Source of the DNA: Flavobacteriales bacterium
Lineage (GTDB): Bacteria; Bacteroidota; Bacteroidia; Flavobacteriales_C; GCA-002722245
Length of the DNA: 35,455 bases
Direction: 5' to 3'
Assembly: GCA_023251075.1 (NCBI GenBank)
Contig: JAHEZM010000030.1
Location: 1 to 35,455, forward strand
The notes under the pieces: generated by a model
Told to the model about the DNA's origin: nothing
The model's input: the letters and a program-made list of their open reading frames with translations, nothing else
Database searches by the model: none
Made by a program: the position numbers and the translations under genes
In this document: in pieces, positions 5,216 through 18,359 of the stretch
Layout: each line of letters begins with the position of its first letter
How positions within the stretch are numbered: the first letter of the stretch is position 1

Positions 5216-6292
5216 ATGAGCAAACACATTCACAATTTCAGTTCAGGACCTTGTATCCTTCCCATAGAAGTAATGAAAAAAGCTGCCGAAGCAGTGATTG
5301 AATACAACAACAGTGGTTTATCTATTATAGAAATGTCGCACCGCAGTCCGGAATTCGAAGATGTAATGGCGCAGTCTTTCGCCATCTTCCGTGAATTGAT
5401 GAATGTTCCAGATGATTACGATGTTATGTTTTTACAAGGCGGAGCGAGTTTACAATTTACCATGATTCCTCAAAATCTTTTGCCTCAAGGTGCTAAGGCA
5501 GGCTATGTGAATACAGGTGTGTGGGCTACAAAAGCAATGAAGGAAGCTAAAATGTTTGGGGAGGTTGCAGAATTAGCTTCTTCAAAAGATGCGAATTTTA
5601 ATTTTATTCCAAAAGACTATAACATCCCAAAAGACTTAAAATACTTGCATTTAACAAGTAACAACACCATTTACGGAACGCAGTACAAATCTTTTCCAGA
5701 AACGAATATTCCATTGATTTGCGATATGTCTTCTGATATTATGAGCAAACCCGTGAATATTTCTAAATTCGACTTAATCTACGCTGGTGCGCAAAAGAAT
5801 ATTGGACCGGCAGGAGTGGTAATTGTAATTGCTAAAAAAGGAATTTTCGGCAAAACAGGCAGAGCTATTCCAACGATGATGGATTATCAAACACATATCG
5901 ATAATGCATCAATGTTCAATACTCCTCCATGTTTTTCAATTTACACCTGCTTACTAACTATGCAATGGTTAAAGAAATTGGGCGGAGTGGTCACCATTGA
6001 AAAAATGAACGAGAAAAAAGCGCAACTGCTATACGATGAAATCGATAGCAACCCTTTATTCGTAGGTACTGCCGCAGTAGAAGATCGCTCATTAATGAAT
6101 GTAACTTTTGTAATGAAAGATGCTTCTTTAGAAAAAGAATTTTTGACTTTGGCTGAAGATCGCGGATTAAGTGGAATCAAAGGCCACAGGAGTGTGGGCG
6201 GATTCCGAGCATCAATTTATAACGCAATGCCTATTGAAAGCGTACAAGCATTGGTAGATGCAATGAGAGATTTTGCAAAAGCAAAAGCTTAA
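5216..6292 (+). CDS. serC: Phosphoserine aminotransferase
   Basis: SerC (358 residues, normal length) is a PLP-dependent class V aminotransferase that converts 3-phosphohydroxypyruvate and glutamate to phosphoserine and 2-oxoglutarate; it can also serve pyridoxal-phosphate synthesis. Visible landmarks are the N-terminal 'HNFSSGPCILP', 'EMSHRSPEF', the cofactor-phosphate loop 'FLQGGASLQF' (73-81), and the PLP lysine K194 in 'YAGAQKNIGPAG'. 'IKGHRSVGGFRASIYNA' near the C-terminus carries substrate-phosphate-binding residues. serA follows after 20 bp on the same strand, giving the usual Bacteroidota serC-serA pair. No serB is present in the window. Confidence 0.97.
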   Translation: MSKHIHNFSSGPCILPIEVMKKAAEAVIEYNNSGLSIIEMSHRSPEFEDVMAQSFAIFRELMNVPDDYDVMFLQGGASLQFTMIPQNLLPQGAKAGYVNTGVWATKAMKEAKMFGEVAELASSKDANFNFIPKDYNIPKDLKYLHLTSNNTIYGTQYKSFPETNIPLICDMSSDIMSKPVNISKFDLIYAGAQKNIGPAGVVIVIAKKGIFGKTGRAIPTMMDYQTHIDNASMFNTPPCFSIYTCLLTMQWLKKLGGVVTIEKMNEKKAQLLYDEIDSNPLFVGTAAVEDRSLMNVTFVMKDASLEKEFLTLAEDRGLSGIKGHRSVGGFRASIYNAMPIESVQALVDAMRDFAKAKA

Positions 6293-6312
6293 CAAAGCGC
6301 TTCTTCTATTTT

Positions 6313-7257
6313 ATGAAAAAAACGGTTTTAATTAATGATTCTTTTCATCCTGCAGGAATGCAATTGTTGAAGGATAAAAATTTCGATTTGCATTTTGGTG
6401 CATATAAGGGCCAGGAGTTAGTCGACTTCATCAATCAACATCAAATACAATCTCTTTTAGTTAGAAGTGCTACAAAAGTTAACCGACAAATAATTGAAAA
6501 TTGCCCTTCTTTAAAACATATTGGAAGAGGTGGTGTTGGAATGGATAATATCGATGAAGAGACTTGTAAAGAAAAAGGAATCATTGCATTCAATACTCCG
6601 GGAGGTTCCACTACCGCTGTTGCAGAAATGGTATTTGCCCATCTCCTATCTTATTACCGCTATATAAGTGAGAGCAATAAACATATTTCACAAAACATTT
6701 CTGAACTGGGAAAACTAAAAAAAGAATTTTCCAAAGGCCACGAATTAAAAGGAAAAACAATTGGCGTAATTGGAACAGGACGAATTGGCTGCGAAGTGAT
6801 TCGATTGGCTTTATCTTTTGGGATGAAAGTGATCGCTTATCATCCCAGCAAAAACGAAATTATTATTCCCTTCAATATTTCTGAAAATAAATTCGATATA
6901 AAAATCGCCATCAGTTCTTTAAATGATTTACTAAAAGAAAGTGATATTATTTCTCTTCATATTCCGCATCAAAATAAACCCATTTTAACTCGGGAATTAT
7001 TCCAGGAAATGAAAAAAGGAGTAGTATTAATCAACACATCGCGCAGTAGCAATGTAGATGAAGCTGATCTGCTGGAAGCAATAAATAACGAAATTGTTAG
7101 TCATGCCTCACTCGATGTATTTAACAGCAATACAAATACAGAACTTCTTTTACATAAAAACATTTCTATTACTCCTCACTTAGGAGCCTCTACAGAAGAA
7201 GCACAAGAAAAAATATCTATTGAAATTGCACAAAAACTGATCAGCTTAACAATTTAG
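6313..7257 (+). CDS. serA: D-3-phosphoglycerate dehydrogenase (short form, no ACT domain)
   Basis: This 314-residue NAD-dependent 2-hydroxyacid dehydrogenase should oxidise 3-phosphoglycerate to 3-phosphohydroxypyruvate, the substrate of the adjacent SerC. 'GRGGVGMDNID' and the C-terminal 'PHLGASTEEAQ' are SerA-type signatures. The Rossmann motif is GVIGTGRIG (151-159). Catalytic R244 ('NTSRSSNVDE') and H289 are present. The third catalytic residue, Glu in the usual 'DVFxxEP' motif, appears to be Asn273 ('LDVFNSNTNTEL'), and the usual 'ARGG' around the Arg is 'SRSS'. The regulatory ACT domain is absent, so classical serine feedback inhibition is unlikely. The operon with serC supports the assignment despite the divergent active-site loop. 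Confidence 0.9.
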   Translation: MKKTVLINDSFHPAGMQLLKDKNFDLHFGAYKGQELVDFINQHQIQSLLVRSATKVNRQIIENCPSLKHIGRGGVGMDNIDEETCKEKGIIAFNTPGGSTTAVAEMVFAHLLSYYRYISESNKHISQNISELGKLKKEFSKGHELKGKTIGVIGTGRIGCEVIRLALSFGMKVIAYHPSKNEIIIPFNISENKFDIKIAISSLNDLLKESDIISLHIPHQNKPILTRELFQEMKKGVVLINTSRSSNVDEADLLEAINNEIVSHASLDVFNSNTNTELLLHKNISITPHLGASTEEAQEKISIEIAQKLISLTI

Positions 7258-12600: not shown

Positions 12601-13233
12601 CTAATTCGGTTGGGGTGTCAATCTCAAATAATTCTTAACAATCTTAAATCCTTTTGGAAATTTAGCTGCTGCATCTTCATTGTTAATGGCAGGAGCAATC
12701 ACCACATCTTCTCCCGGTTTCCAATTGGCAGGAGTTGCTACGCTAAATTTAGCCGTTAATTGTAATGAATCAATTACACGTAAAAGTTCATCGAAATTTC
12801 TTCCGGTTGAAGCTGGATAAGTGATGATTAATTTTATTTTTTTATCCGGACCAACCACAAATACTGAACGCACAGTGAATTTGTCGTTTGCATTAGGATG
12901 AATCATATCGTATAACTCAGAAACTTTTCTGTCTTCATCGGCAATGATAGGAAAGTTCACTGTAGTATTTTGTGTTTCATTGATGTCTTTAATCCACCCT
13001 TGGTGAGATTCTAAGCCATCCACACTCAAAGCAATCACTTTAGTATTTCTTTTTTCGAACTCAGCTTTGTACTTGGCAACAGTTCCTAATTCTGTAGTAC
13101 AAACCGGAGTATAATCGGCTGGATGAGAAAATAAAACTACCCATCCTTCTCCAAGATATTGGTGAAAATTAATATCACCTTCACTTGATTTTGCTGTAAA
13201 ATCGGGAGCGATGTCCCCTAAACGTAAGCTCAT
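12601..13233 (-). CDS. 1-Cys peroxiredoxin (Prx6 type)
   Basis: This 210-residue cytosolic thiol peroxidase reduces H2O2 and organic hydroperoxides. The active-site motif is 'HPADYTPVCTTELG', with T42 and peroxidatic C45; the conserved Arg is R122 ('FTVRSVFVV'). C45 is the only cysteine in the protein, so there is no resolving Cys. Length, the 'PVCTTE' motif and the long C-terminal dimerisation part ('TPANWKPGEDVVIAP') place it in the Prx6 group. It begins 28 bp after the PstB-like gene on the same strand and probably is the last gene of that operon. A peroxidase at the end of an anion-uptake operon is unusual; phosphate operons normally end in phoU. Confidence 0.94.
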   Translation of the reverse strand: MSLRLGDIAPDFTAKSSEGDINFHQYLGEGWVVLFSHPADYTPVCTTELGTVAKYKAEFEKRNTKVIALSVDGLESHQGWIKDINETQNTTVNFPIIADEDRKVSELYDMIHPNANDKFTVRSVFVVGPDKKIKLIITYPASTGRNFDELLRVIDSLQLTAKFSVATPANWKPGEDVVIAPAINNEDAAAKFPKGFKIVKNYLRLTPQPN

Positions 13234-13261: not shown

Positions 13262-14026
13262 CTAACTTAAGAAACCTCTCACATAATCCTTTGTTAATTT
13301 TTCTTTAGGATCGAGAAGCAACTGTTCTGTTGGCGCAAACTCCACTATTTCTCCCATATAAACAAAGGCACAATAGTCGGAAACCCTTCTGGCCTGACGC
13401 AAAATATGCGTTACCAAAACAATAGTATATTTTTCTTTTAACTGAAGAAAAAGCTCTTCAATTTTTTGGGTAGAGACAGGATCTAAAGCCGATGTTGGTT
13501 CGTCACCTAAAATGATTTCAGGCTCAACAGCCAATCCTCTGGCCAAACACAATCTTTGTTGTTGTCCGATCGACAAACGTGACGCCGGAGCTTTCAATCT
13601 ATCTTTCACCTCATCCCATAAAGCAACATCTTTAAGATATTGCTCTACTAAATGATCTAATTTATGACGATCACGCTCACCGTGAATTCTCGGTCCGTAA
13701 GCAATGTTATCATAAATCGACATAGGTAAGGGGAAAGGGCGTTGCGACAACAATCCCATTTTTTTTCTAATGGCTGTTACATCCACACCTTTAGCATAAA
13801 TATCTTCACCATCCAACAACACTTTACCTTCTACTTTCACTTCCAAAGAAGAATCATGTAAACGATTAAATGTTTTAAGAAGAGTAGTTTTTCCGCAGCC
13901 AGAGGGACCAATAAAAGAAGTCACTTTTTTATCAGGAATATCAATACTGATATTTTTCAACGCATGATTAGCGCCATAATACAAGTTCAAATCCTGAACG
14001 CGAATATGAGGTGTTTCAAAGGTCAT
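13262..14026 (-). CDS. pstB: PstB-like ABC transporter ATP-binding protein
   Basis: This is a 254-residue ATPase of the phosphate-type ABC importer, on the cytoplasmic face with PstA and PstC. Walker A is 'GPSGCGKTT', the Q-loop region is 'KKMGLLSQRPFPLPMSIYDN', the signature is 'LSIGQQQRLCLARGLA', Walker B is 'EIILGDEP', and the switch His lies in 'LVTHILRQARRVSD'. It follows the PstB pattern ('FNRLHD', 'YDNIAYGPRIHG'). Two small departures are Ile for Gly in the LSGGQ signature and 'ILGDEP' for the commoner 'LLMDEP'. Its start overlaps the pstA stop by 4 bases (translational coupling). It is followed by a peroxiredoxin, not by phoU. The symbol reflects family; the transported anion is uncertain. 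Confidence 0.92.
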   Translation of the reverse strand: MTFETPHIRVQDLNLYYGANHALKNISIDIPDKKVTSFIGPSGCGKTTLLKTFNRLHDSSLEVKVEGKVLLDGEDIYAKGVDVTAIRKKMGLLSQRPFPLPMSIYDNIAYGPRIHGERDRHKLDHLVEQYLKDVALWDEVKDRLKAPASRLSIGQQQRLCLARGLAVEPEIILGDEPTSALDPVSTQKIEELFLQLKEKYTIVLVTHILRQARRVSDYCAFVYMGEIVEFAPTEQLLLDPKEKLTKDYVRGFLS

Positions 14027-14874
14027 ACTTTATTTTTTGAAAATTTTTTACTTAATAATCTTGCTAAAACACTAATTATTAAAACAAAAATGGTGAGTAT
14101 TAATGCTGAGGCGTATGCTTTTGCACGAACACCTTCGTACGGACTACTCAACTGATTAAAAATAGCCAGAGGTAAAGTGGCTGTTGGGTCTTCCATCGAG
14201 GTGGGAATATTATCACTAAATCCTGCTGTAAACATCACCGATGCCACATCGCCAATACCTCTTCCGAAGGCCAATAAAATGGCCGTCATGATACCTGGAG
14301 CAACTTGTTTTAAAATTACCCAAGCTGTTTCTAAGCGTGTGGCTCCCAATGAAAAAGTAGCTTCATACAATTCGTTAGGTACCGTACGAATCACCTCATC
14401 CATCGTTCTTATCATGATAGGAATCACCAATAAAGTAACCGCAATGATACCGCCCAAAAGGGAAGCACGCATACCGAGATACATCATTAATGTGAAACCA
14501 AATGCACCATAAACGATAGATGGAATTCCAAATAAAACATCGTATCCCATTCGCGTTAAGTTACCCAACCACGAACGTTTTCTTAAATAAGTATTGATAT
14601 AAATCACCACCGGCAAACTAATCAGCAAAGCCAACAATGAAGAACCTGCTGCAATATAAAACGAACCGATAATAGCATTTAAAACACCTCCTTCTCCACC
14701 GAGGAAAAACCCACCCGACGGAACTTTAGTGATCAAATCCCAACTCATTGCCGGTGCACCTTTCACCACGATAGTTCCTACTATCAAAAAGAAGCTACCC
14801 ACCACTATTAAAGCGGAGATGATCATTAGGATCTTAAAAAAACGCTCTTCTATATTTCTGCCTTTCACCTTCAT
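14023..14874 (-). CDS. pstA: PstA-like ABC transporter permease
   Basis: This 283-residue inner-membrane permease has about six hydrophobic helices. The cytoplasmic EAA loop that docks the ATPase is 'EATFSLGATRLETAWVILKQVAPGI'. The segment after it, 'LAFGRGIGDVASVMFTAG', has Asp-Val where many phosphate PstA proteins have Glu-Thr ('AIGET'). It starts immediately after pstC (no gap) and overlaps pstB by 4 bases, as in a tightly coupled operon. It forms the channel with PstC. The family is clear; specificity is set mostly by the binding protein. Confidence 0.92.
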   Translation of the reverse strand: MKVKGRNIEERFFKILMIISALIVVGSFFLIVGTIVVKGAPAMSWDLITKVPSGGFFLGGEGGVLNAIIGSFYIAAGSSLLALLISLPVVIYINTYLRKRSWLGNLTRMGYDVLFGIPSIVYGAFGFTLMMYLGMRASLLGGIIAVTLLVIPIMIRTMDEVIRTVPNELYEATFSLGATRLETAWVILKQVAPGIMTAILLAFGRGIGDVASVMFTAGFSDNIPTSMEDPTATLPLAIFNQLSSPYEGVRAKAYASALILTIFVLIISVLARLLSKKFSKNKV

Positions 14875-15768
14875 CTATTCTATTTTGCGCTTTACCCTAG
14901 CCAAAATGATTCTGGATACAGCATTAAAAATGAAAATAATAACAAACAACAAAAGCGCTGCAAAAAGCAAAGCCGAGTCGTACAATGGTACAGAAAAAGT
15001 TTCTCCAAAATTATTGGCAATAAGCACAGGTAATGGATAACCTGAATCAAAAACAGAATGTGGAATTCCGGGAACATTACCTCCGCACACCATTAGCACT
15101 GCAATGGTTTCTCCAAAAGCCCTTGATATTGCCAATACTGTGGAAGCTATCATTCCTGGCATCGCTTTCTTAAGCAATACTTTTTTTACCGTTTGCCAAG
15201 GTGTTGCACCTAACGATAAAGAGGCGTTTAGCATATCTCGGGGTACAGTAGAAAAAACCTCTAAAAACAAAGTGATCAATAAAGGAAAGATCATAATTGC
15301 CAAAACAATTCCTCCTGCTAAAACACTATATCCCGCAGAATTATCTACAAAGCTGGGGGCGATATGATCTTGAATTAAAGGAATGATAAACAACACTCCC
15401 CACACACCAAATAATACTGGTGGAATTCCCGACAATAAATCGACTACCGGCACGATCAACTTTCTCAAACGAGGATGCGCATATTCAGATAAATAAATAG
15501 AAACCAATAAGCAAAGTGGCAAAGCAAGAATGATGGCGATCGCCGTCACCCATAAAGTTCCCATGATAAAACCCAAAAAACCAAACTCACCCTTCTCGGG
15601 TTTCCATGCAGAAGAGGTCAATAAGTCGGTGAGAGAATAATTTTCTAAAAGAGGAAGAGAACGATAAAACAAGCCCCAGGCTACCAATACCGCCAAAAGA
15701 ATCGATACTAGTGTTAACACTAACATCGTTCTTCCTGCAATTTTATCTTTCAGTATCCTAATATTCAT
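14875..15768 (-). CDS. pstC: PstC-like ABC transporter permease
   Basis: This 297-residue inner-membrane permease is the partner of PstA. It has about six transmembrane segments; the N-terminal one is 'MLVLTLVSILLAVLVAWGLF'. The EAA loop is 'LNASLSLGATPWQTVKKVLLKKAMPGM', followed by 'LAISRAFGETIAVLMVCGG', which keeps the usual Gly-Glu-Thr. 'IYLSEYAHPRLRKLIVPVVDLLSGIPPVLFG' is a strong PstC signature. It lies 20 bp after pstS and abuts pstA. Its length is normal and no defect is seen. Confidence 0.93.
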   Translation of the reverse strand: MNIRILKDKIAGRTMLVLTLVSILLAVLVAWGLFYRSLPLLENYSLTDLLTSSAWKPEKGEFGFLGFIMGTLWVTAIAIILALPLCLLVSIYLSEYAHPRLRKLIVPVVDLLSGIPPVLFGVWGVLFIIPLIQDHIAPSFVDNSAGYSVLAGGIVLAIMIFPLLITLFLEVFSTVPRDMLNASLSLGATPWQTVKKVLLKKAMPGMIASTVLAISRAFGETIAVLMVCGGNVPGIPHSVFDSGYPLPVLIANNFGETFSVPLYDSALLFAALLLFVIIFIFNAVSRIILARVKRKIE

Positions 15769-15788: not shown

Positions 15789-16760
15789 TTACTTCAACTT
15801 TTTAAGTTCTCCTTCAAGCTTTTCTTTCGAAAAAGCAACATATCCACTTGATGCTACAAATTGCTGTCCGTCGGTTAACACCCACTTGATGAATTCCACC
15901 AACACTTTATCTGCCGGTTTACCTTTCGTAACGAAATATAGATCTCTAGCCGGAGGAGAAGGATATTTACCAGTATTGATAGCACTTAACAAACTATCCA
16001 AGTTTGAAAAATTATTTTCATCAGTATCAATCACTCCATTAGCATTTACATCAATTGGAATAATTTTCACGCCCGGTAAAGGTTGTTTAGTTTTCAAATC
16101 GAATACATAACCAATATTGTTATAGCCAACACCACTGGGGTCTTTCAAAACTGCTTGCAACAAACCAGGGTCACCAAAAACGCCTACACCTTTTAAGTCT
16201 TCTTGTTTTTTACCCAAATATTTCGCCCACGATTCGGCAGCACCTGCAGCATCAGAACGTGTGTAGATATGTGTTTGTGCTGAAGCTGAAAATCCGAGTT
16301 GTTTCCAGTCACTTGCCGAATTTTCGATGAATAATTTATAGAAAGATTCTTTAGACAAGCCTTTAGCTAAGATCTCATTGATATTCGGATTCGCCTCGTT
16401 GATGGTTGGAACCACAGCATCTTTTGTTACCGCAATAGCATAACCACCTTGTTTAACTTCCGCATCTTTCAGATCTCTGGAAACCAAAGCCAAATCGGCC
16501 AAGCCACCCAAGGCATCGGAAACACCTTTACCGGCACCACCTGCAGAAATATTGAACTTCACATCAGGATGTATTTTTTTAAATTCTTCTCCCCATTTAA
16601 CCATTAGCGGATAAAGTGCAAATGCTCCTGAGGCGGTAATTGTTCCTTCTAACTCCGCTGTATTCGGATTGTCATCAGATGAATTTGATGAGCAAGAAGT
16701 AGCGAAAGATATAAGGATAATCAAGGCGAAGAATAACGAAGATTTAAATATTGTTTTCAT
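15789..16760 (-). CDS. pstS: PstS-like anion-binding lipoprotein (substrate doubtful)
   Basis: This is a 323-residue periplasmic solute-binding lipoprotein; the lipobox cysteine is C23 ('SFATSC'), followed by a Ser/Asp-rich linker. Fold and operon match PstS. Alignment by eye to E. coli PstS places R168-D170-G173 on Arg135-Asp137-Gly140, but the phosphate-binding Ser139 and Thr141 are Ala172 and Ala174 ('TRSDAAGAAESW'), and the N-terminal 'ATFP' is 'ALYP', losing Thr10. 'LVSRDL' has Arg95 where E. coli has Asp56; that Arg is normal in the 'SRxL' PstS subfamily. The changed ligands suggest a different oxyanion or another binding geometry. It is second in the operon, after the porin. Confidence 0.85.
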   Translation of the reverse strand: MKTIFKSSLFFALIILISFATSCSSNSSDDNPNTAELEGTITASGAFALYPLMVKWGEEFKKIHPDVKFNISAGGAGKGVSDALGGLADLALVSRDLKDAEVKQGGYAIAVTKDAVVPTINEANPNINEILAKGLSKESFYKLFIENSASDWKQLGFSASAQTHIYTRSDAAGAAESWAKYLGKKQEDLKGVGVFGDPGLLQAVLKDPSGVGYNNIGYVFDLKTKQPLPGVKIIPIDVNANGVIDTDENNFSNLDSLLSAINTGKYPSPPARDLYFVTKGKPADKVLVEFIKWVLTDGQQFVASSGYVAFSKEKLEGELKKLK

Positions 16761-16790: not shown

Positions 16791-18143
16791 TTATTTTTTA
16801 ATGCTTAATAATTGGGGAGTGAATGTTACTTGCAAATAGCTCCAGTAAGGAAGATAAGCGCTGCTTCCGCTTGAAATGAACTCAAGAGATTTTGAAGGCA
16901 ACAAAGCAGAAACTCCCAAATCTACTTTAGTATATTTATTCGGGCGATAGATCAATAACAAATCACTTTCGAATCCTAAATAATTTCCTAGTGCTTGCAG
17001 CTTTTTGCTATCAACAGCTAACCACTGAGAATAAAGCAAATGGTTTTGTAAAGAGATAGCGAACTTCTCTCCTATTTTTTGCTCAATGAATAAGTAGGGA
17101 TTGATTAAACCAACATCTTTAATAGAACCCGGATATCCAGAAGCAAAATATTCCATTGTGCCATTGAAGCGATGCGCTACACCATAAGGATATTGAAACG
17201 CATGATCATACTCGGTAGCCCATTTGTCTTTAGCCAGCGGATTGTTACCACTTTTAAATTCGGCACCCAATTTTATTTCCGTTTTCTTGCTAGTGAATTT
17301 AACTTCAGGTTGCAGATATAATGCAGCTAGTTTTTTTCCAACTTGATTGTGTCCCCACTGATAATATCCTGCAACGGTAAAATAAAATTTTCCTGAAGTG
17401 TACTCTAGACGTCCGCCATTGGTATATCTAAAATTCTGGTGTTCCGTTCTGTTAAAAGCGTTTTTTGTAAACGTTCCGCCATACTGAAAACCTTCATAAT
17501 AATTGATCGTTGTTAGAGCCAATTTCTGATTTTTAGATCTCCATTTAAGATAACTCACCAACAAAGATTTGTAATTGTTAAATCCGATAGGATTGAAATT
17601 GGTGTAGTAATTACCATCAGCTGATTGGTTCCACGCAAACAACAATTGAGATTCGAGTTTACCTGAATTGTAAATCAGATTCACCGCATCATGTGTACCA
17701 GCATTGTTTCTCCAATCGTTTTGCGCAAACAATCTTTGATTATCGAGCATGAAACGTTGCTTACCAATTCTAACAGATAGATTCTTATTGAAAAAAGGTT
17801 CTGCCCACGCTTCAAAAACCTGCACTGTACCAGTTGTAGAACGCGGATCGGCTAAGCCCCACTCTCTCACATCTTGCAAAGAAACTGCTGCTGCAAATTT
17901 GTCTTTCTTAAAATTTAAATTCAATCGTGTTCTTTGAAAAGTAGCTATTGCCGGATACGTAGTATCTGATCTTAACTGACGGAAACCATTTCTAAATTCT
18001 GTTCTACCTCTCAATTCTAGATCAATAGTGAACACTTCTGCGGGTAAGGAATCGGTTTTGGTTTGCGCAAATGACAATGCGCTCCATAAGGATATTGATA
18101 GTAATAAGCCCTTGCTTTTATCTGACTTAATATTTGTTTTCAT
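16791..18143 (-). CDS. Alginate_export-type outer-membrane porin
   Basis: This 450-residue outer-membrane beta-barrel has a signal peptide ending near 'LSFAQ' and alternating aromatic/polar strands throughout. Family hallmarks are 'LELRGRTEFRNGF', 'VRIGKQRFMLDNQRLF' and 'NDWRNNAGTHDAVNLIY'. The family name comes from AlgE; most members are narrow channels for anionic or small solutes, and nothing else here concerns alginate. It starts the structural part of the operon and is followed after 30 bp by the PstS-like gene, so it likely admits the same anion to the periplasm. A 36-codon Cys-rich ORF with a promoter lies just upstream. Confidence 0.87.
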   Translation of the reverse strand: MKTNIKSDKSKGLLLSISLWSALSFAQTKTDSLPAEVFTIDLELRGRTEFRNGFRQLRSDTTYPAIATFQRTRLNLNFKKDKFAAAVSLQDVREWGLADPRSTTGTVQVFEAWAEPFFNKNLSVRIGKQRFMLDNQRLFAQNDWRNNAGTHDAVNLIYNSGKLESQLLFAWNQSADGNYYTNFNPIGFNNYKSLLVSYLKWRSKNQKLALTTINYYEGFQYGGTFTKNAFNRTEHQNFRYTNGGRLEYTSGKFYFTVAGYYQWGHNQVGKKLAALYLQPEVKFTSKKTEIKLGAEFKSGNNPLAKDKWATEYDHAFQYPYGVAHRFNGTMEYFASGYPGSIKDVGLINPYLFIEQKIGEKFAISLQNHLLYSQWLAVDSKKLQALGNYLGFESDLLLIYRPNKYTKVDLGVSALLPSKSLEFISSGSSAYLPYWSYLQVTFTPQLLSIKK

Positions 18144-18192
18144 CTTTAGTATATAGATTTAATAGGGTAATAGATTTAAAAAATTATTTTAA

Positions 18193-18303
18193 TTAGGCAA
18201 TACAACTGCAACAACAATAAATCACTTTCTCACTATTCAAATCAATATTACTCAGCCACACCAGAGCTAAGGAGTTTAAAGTTTGTTTTTTAATCGCATT
18301 CAT
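18193..18303 (-). CDS. Cys-rich 36-residue leader peptide (small ORF)
   Basis: ATG at 18303 and TAA at 18193-18195 give a 36-residue peptide: 'MNAIKKQTLNSLALVWLSN', then 'IDLNSEKVIYCCCSCIA'. Four of the last seven residues are cysteine, encoded TGT TGT TGC AGT TGT. It sits about 17 bases after the predicted start site from the promoter at 18326-18333 and 49 bp before the porin ATG. The position, size and a run of one amino acid near the end are typical of leader peptides that sense charged tRNA. Cys-rich upstream ORFs of this kind are known in mycobacteria, where they link sulfur genes to cysteine supply. Alternatively it is a small metal-binding protein. No intrinsic terminator is evident between it and the porin. 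Confidence 0.55.
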   Translation of the reverse strand: MNAIKKQTLNSLALVWLSNIDLNSEKVIYCCCSCIA

Positions 18304-18325: not shown

Positions 18326-18359
18326 CAAATATATAACAAAGTCTATATGTCTAGTATAG
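18326..18359 (-). promoter_or_regulatory. Promoter and candidate operator of the leader/porin/Pst-like operon
   Basis: The minus-strand -7 box TATATTTG (18326-18333) matches TAnnTTTG. No TTG occupies -33. Instead that region holds two direct TAGAC repeats 8 bp apart (GTCTA on the plus strand at 18341-18345 and 18349-18353), overlapping an inverted repeat CTATA (18343-18347)/TATAG (18355-18359). Lack of a good -33 box together with repeats there suggests control by a DNA-binding protein. Confidence 0.5.

Follow-up and report, generated by a model that had tools for sequence, protein, structure and literature searches.

A recurrent cysteine-rich leader ORF upstream of a Pst-type, most likely sulfate-uptake, operon in Bacteroidota

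Results

Organization of the locus

The window, by which we mean the whole stretch of 35,455 nucleotides analysed here, from a Flavobacteriales bacterium, contains an operon for an outer-membrane porin and a Pst-type ABC transporter, preceded by a putative operator, a promoter and a short Cys-rich ORF. The features, in the order of transcription of the operon, are the following:

18343..18354, minus strand: putative Rrf2-type operator CTAGACATATAG (CTA-N6-TAG), part of a composite conserved upstream of orthologous operons
18326..18333, minus strand: -7 box TATATTTG (TAnnTTTG, Bacteroidota type), whose position after the operator is conserved in orthologous loci
18193..18303, minus strand: Cys-rich leader ORF of 36 codons, MNAIKKQTLNSLALVWLSNIDLNSEKVIYCCCSCIA, supported by the ORF listing, the leaders of relatives and a shuffle test
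18202..18216, minus strand: Cys codon cluster TGT TGT TGC AGT TGT, the proposed stall site, seen in the sequence and with a CC-x-C-like counterpart in six other lineages
18144..18192, minus strand: AU-rich spacer of 49 nt between leader and porin, without terminator or significant structure
16791..18143, minus strand: outer-membrane porin of the Alginate_exp family (PF13372), with congener orthologues 56-60% identical
15789..16760, minus strand: PstS-like substrate-binding protein (SBP; PF12849), probably sulfate-binding, below the curated PstS cut-offs
14875..15768, minus strand: PstC-like permease (TIGR02138, 263 bits)
14023..14874, minus strand: PstA-like permease (TIGR00974, 203 bits)
13262..14026, minus strand: PstB-like ATPase (TIGR00972, 351 bits)
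12601..13233, minus strand: 1-Cys peroxiredoxin, found between SBP and PstC of the orthologous operon in loci L015, L016, L017 and L018
12073..12543, plus strand: Rrf2-family regulator with a CEECxxxxxC motif (likely of the Fe-S type), linked to the operon in many relatives

The leader ORF starts with ATG and encodes 36 amino acids ending in ...YCCCSCIA, with Cys codons at 18208-18216 and 18202-18204, and it lies 49 nt upstream of the porin ORF, which starts at 18143; the ORF listing thus agrees with the earlier note, which had described a 36-codon ORF ending in a Cys run at this distance from the porin gene. Transcription is expected to start a few nucleotides downstream of the -7 box, and with a predicted start about 5-7 nt after the box the 5' leader would measure roughly 15-17 nt. 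With its ATG 22 nt after the -7 box, the leader comes first among the ORFs of the expected transcript. Also near the operon, beyond the gene of a large type IX-secreted protein, are a class-V aminotransferase gene and a 2-hydroxyacid dehydrogenase gene (5216-7257; SerC/SerA-like, serine pathway).

The composite formed by operator and promoter, CTA-N6-TAG-N4-11-TANNTTTG, occurs 20 times in the 1.38 Mb of DNA that were fetched, the number of independent sites being lower since the loci overlap, and all annotated matches are found upstream of a porin/TonB/OprP/SBP operon or of a YeeE gene adjoining it. A scan of the leader strand for sigma70-type consensus sites gave only weak sites at chance level. 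The Rrf2 gene sits at the far end of the operon and is convergent to it, and its product probably regulates the operon, for which it may bind the CTA-N6-TAG operator. In one congener the same composite is also present 5' of a YeeE/YedE pair (L015:4393-4423), which suggests that the Rrf2 protein has a small sulfur regulon.

The operon most likely serves sulfate uptake

The transporter has the ABC architecture and the protein families of the PstSCAB phosphate transporter, and its PstC and PstB proteins exceed the curated cut-offs of the phosphate equivalogs. The SBP, on the other hand, reaches 107 bits where the TIGR02136 cut-off is 207 and 59 bits where that of TIGR00975 is 205, and the operon lacks PhoU, so that it does not qualify as a PstSCAB phosphate transporter; window-type operons also differ from PstSCAB in their outer-membrane porin/TonB component, their Rrf2 regulator and their sulfur gene neighbourhood. 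A separate and complete phosphate system is encoded elsewhere in the same genome (G000:C45), comprising PhoR, PhoB, PstS, PstC, PstA, PstB, PhoU and a Na/Pi cotransporter.

We gathered homologous SBP-PstCAB sets from public genomes and compared these loci with reference proteins. The operonic tie to sulfate assimilation that would mark a sulfate uptake system is present in these homologues, which are operonic with or adjacent to genes for CysD, CysN, CysH, sulfite reductase or SUMT in six loci (L020, L027, L039, L208, L209 and L210). YeeE/YedE sulfur transporters adjoin the homologous operon in L015 and L016, a CitMHS/TrkA_C (SLC13-like) transporter adjoins the homologous set in L022 and L029, and an Rrf2 gene is found next to the sets in many loci, while no PhoU, PhoB or PhoR gene was found beside any of the homologues. 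In the window's genus all five genomes have the operon and lack a CitMHS-type transporter of ~600 aa; in the sister genus the five genomes all have this transporter and lack the operon. SulP proteins are encoded in both genera, and the presence of a SulP transporter in the window's own genome counts against the model proposed below. As the gene context of the homologues is one of sulfate assimilation and sulfur transport, sulfate is the likely substrate, and by this context the Pst-like operon most likely serves sulfate uptake. The earlier note had read it as a phosphate transporter, which in view of the sulfate-assimilation neighbours and the separate phosphate Pst system it very probably is not.

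A Ser-Arg pair in the SBP, in place of the Asp of E. coli PstS, was considered as a mark of sulfate binding and dropped, because the true PstS of the same genome has the same Ser-Arg. In Chitinophagales, one locus (L022:5813-13647) brings together two SBP copies, an OprP-type porin, Pst-like genes and the SLC13-like transporter. SBPs 48-53% identical to that of the window are present in Aminicenantes, Fraserbacteria, Acidobacteria and Syntrophorhabdus MAGs (L023, L024, L028, L034, L038 and L039), and the family thus spans several phyla.

Cys-cluster leaders recur in related operons

In six lineages besides that of the window, making seven in all, diverged leader ORFs with a Cys cluster stand between the operator-promoter and this operon:

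G006 and G007 (congeners): MNTLNFKHSRFAKDSGLSYCCCCSLLAR, at the same place as in the window
G395 (other family): MANNTSITFFILTACTYCCICLLAY
G413 (other family): MLSLFLLKNCCNCLMALVVN
G196 (other family): MSNSKYILKRVFRAIRSMCCYMCL
G342 (other family): MTTTGHFLFETRFRSATEGVLKHATTRFSSPKMCCMRCCPPMC, a looser fit to the pattern
G096 (other family): MKSVTQSDRVFRRKLFSLTELCLCGYNNEYSVRCCQCMCVIINVPAKGSLLPDQRNKNIYKS, 5' of a TonB-type receptor, also a looser fit

Their ends read YCCCCSLLAR-stop (the two congeners), YCCICLLAY-stop, NCCNCLMALVVN-stop, MCCYMCL-stop, MCCMRCCPPMC-stop and RCCQCMCV... What they share is a CC core with more Cys close behind; the remainder is hardly alignable and the lengths range from 20 to 62 aa. 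The leaders of G196, G395 and G413 have a common end, ...TGY-TGY...TGC-CTT..., which indicates that at least these are homologous. Between G006 and G007 leader and spacer are identical at 118 of 118 nt, the flanking genes being 93.5-93.8% identical. No such ORF was found in the relatives with a short 5' leader of 23-66 nt (G009, G014, G158, G133 and G388); in G009, a congener, the 5' leader is 48 nt long, and many relatives likewise have no Cys-rich leader, suggesting that the element was gained or lost repeatedly. By the earlier note's own account, its reading would be contradicted if the ORF or its Cys run were not conserved among related genomes; when this was looked for, the seven lineages were found to carry Cys-cluster leaders, and some relatives, such as G009, to lack them.

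Each leader region was compared with 5000 dinucleotide shuffles, using as statistic the maximum number of Cys codons per 8 codons of any ATG ORF, and with 96 other intergenic regions of comparable length drawn from these loci. With the reservation that the shuffle, combined and background figures come from a small sample of leaders and are somewhat optimistic, because some leaders had been noticed before the statistic was fixed, the window's leader region held 4 Cys in 8 codons (p = 0.0026), the other leader regions gave p = 0.0002-0.01 each, the Fisher-combined p was 7e-14 over the eight lineages whose leader region is long and 4e-10 when the window's genus was left out, and 7 of the 8 long leader regions, versus 2 of the 96 controls, had 3 or more Cys within 8 codons. 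A comparison of long with short leader regions was set aside, being confounded by length and affected by a miscount of the short cases.

Wider searches yielded little beyond these leaders. A peptide search in the family returned the window copy and noise, no leader was found before the cysDN or sulfite-reductase operons of the same genus, and none of the leaders scanned matched NCBIfam, Pfam or Rfam. A class-wide DNA pattern for Y-C-C-C-x-x matched in 148 of 395 genomes, and nearly all inspected matches were antisense or out of frame within coding genes. The only clear intergenic match besides the known leaders, a Cys5-containing ORF (MRNLSFISFLNILSRIFYSAGNYCCCCCPCLGEKVF; L049:1419-1584) located 58 nt 5' of an ATP-grasp gene, was judged unrelated and is possibly due to chance.

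Discussion

Possible mechanism

The leader of the window presents clustered Cys codons, conserved as a cluster in relatives, first place on the expected transcript and a position 5' of probable sulfur genes, as would be expected of a cysteine-responsive upstream ORF (uORF). The 49-nt spacer contains no intrinsic terminator such as a trp-type transcription attenuator requires; the single terminator-like site (18397-18385) is upstream of the promoter. The RNA of the window folds no better than its shuffles (z -0.2 and +0.7), and z values of -1.5 to +0.1 for the other leader regions gave no sign of a conserved RNA switch. The lack of a terminator and of a conserved RNA switch makes a translational effect, through occupancy, coupling or mRNA protection, likelier than classical terminator attenuation. 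Calculations that placed a stalled ribosome on the Cys codons gave no consistent change in the energy needed to open the porin start. Bacteroidota initiate translation largely without Shine-Dalgarno sites, so that pausing must be read out differently.

We propose that an Rrf2-family repressor acting at CTA-N6-TAG would gate transcription, and that translation of the leader, the first ORF, beginning some 20 nt past the -7 box, would then be required. With ample cysteine, ribosomes would pass the Cys cluster and terminate, and the porin would be poorly initiated, whereas in cysteine scarcity, with low levels of charged tRNA-Cys, they would pause at the Cys codons and expression of porin, SBP, PstC, PstA and PstB would rise. 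Pausing would alter the translation or the stability of the downstream message. We consider it likely that the leader is a uORF through which the supply of charged tRNA-Cys governs expression of the Pst-type sulfate-uptake operon.

Of the other explanations, an arrest or metal-sensing nascent peptide, whose Cys cluster would sense redox state, or bind a metal (copper or zinc) or an Fe-S precursor, in place of reporting Cys-tRNA supply, appears unlikely. Clustered Cys could indeed bind metal, the adjoining Rrf2 protein has a CxxC...C motif of the Fe-S type, the operon includes a peroxiredoxin, and there is a parallel in outline in a nascent exported protein through which copper controls translation (PMC9973294). 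However, the operon would take up sulfate and not metal, the length and spacing of the leaders vary outside the CC core, and the cluster is C-terminal in most of them, which implies that much of it would still be within the ribosome tunnel. It is quite improbable that the ORF arose by chance from an AT-rich leader that happens to hold TGT/TGC repeats: its occurrence at this position in each of seven lineages, the shuffle and background tests and the perfect identity between G006 and G007 all disagree with this, even though TGY-repeat stretches are common by chance antisense to coding regions and the ORF is absent in some relatives.

We see about as little room for a second phosphate transporter with a leader answering another signal, since the PstC and PstB scores that would favour it are opposed by the SBP falling far under the PstS cut-offs, by the homologues found, which adjoin sulfate-assimilation genes and none of which adjoins PhoU, PhoB or PhoR, and by the dedicated phosphate system elsewhere in the genome. 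Least probable of all is a small peptide acting in trans as a protein, either chaperone or regulator. If translated at all, the leader would use the first AUG of the transcript, as such a peptide might, yet there is almost no conservation beyond the Cys cluster, lengths differ between 20 and 62 aa and the location is always in cis.

The cysteine-responsive uORF is therefore the best explanation of the recurrent Cys-rich leader ORF, and in this the cysteine-leader reading of the earlier note stands, without its phosphate substrate. That note regarded cysteine sensing as unexpected at such an operon; with homologues operonic with sulfate-assimilation genes and a separate phosphate Pst system, cysteine control is to be expected.

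Relation to known systems and significance

Control of mycobacterial sulfur genes by polycysteine uORFs was first proposed in PMC4633059, and these uORFs, in which cysteine-dependent elongation speed attenuates the downstream genes (PMC9031893), have been described as translation attenuation (PMC13236596); the CysR-type uORFs are those of Canestrari et al. (2020), as cited in PMC9031893, PMC13236596 and PMC9094748. They share with the window a short ORF that is first in the transcript, has contiguous Cys codons near its end, stands upstream of sulfur-acquisition genes and needs no classical terminator. They differ in phylum and probably in the place of the AUG, which for them is the RNA 5' end and in the window lies some 20 nt past the -7 box, with a short predicted 5' leader before it. 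The present leader also has a CC-x-C peptide core, is paired with an Rrf2-type operator and precedes an outer-membrane porin and a Pst-type transporter. The cysS uORF of Rhodobacterales (uORFC-8-2 motif), for which cysteinyl-tRNA sensing was proposed (PMC8632094), also has tandem Cys codons in a short leader, together with two stems and an intrinsic terminator, unlike the window leader, where we found no terminator or conserved structure. No report of cysteine-sensing uORFs in Bacteroidota was found in the literature searched.

More tentatively, at somewhat less than even odds, a widespread and so far undescribed class of CC-x-C leaders in Bacteroidota, together with an Fe-S-type Rrf2 repressor, may control a Pst-derived sulfate importer, sensing charged tRNA-Cys without Shine-Dalgarno sites, terminators or RNA switches, which would amount to cysteine attenuation by a new translational mechanism. 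A family whose members now carry phosphate-transport annotations very probably imports sulfate, and these annotations would then have to be corrected in Bacteroidota and several other phyla.
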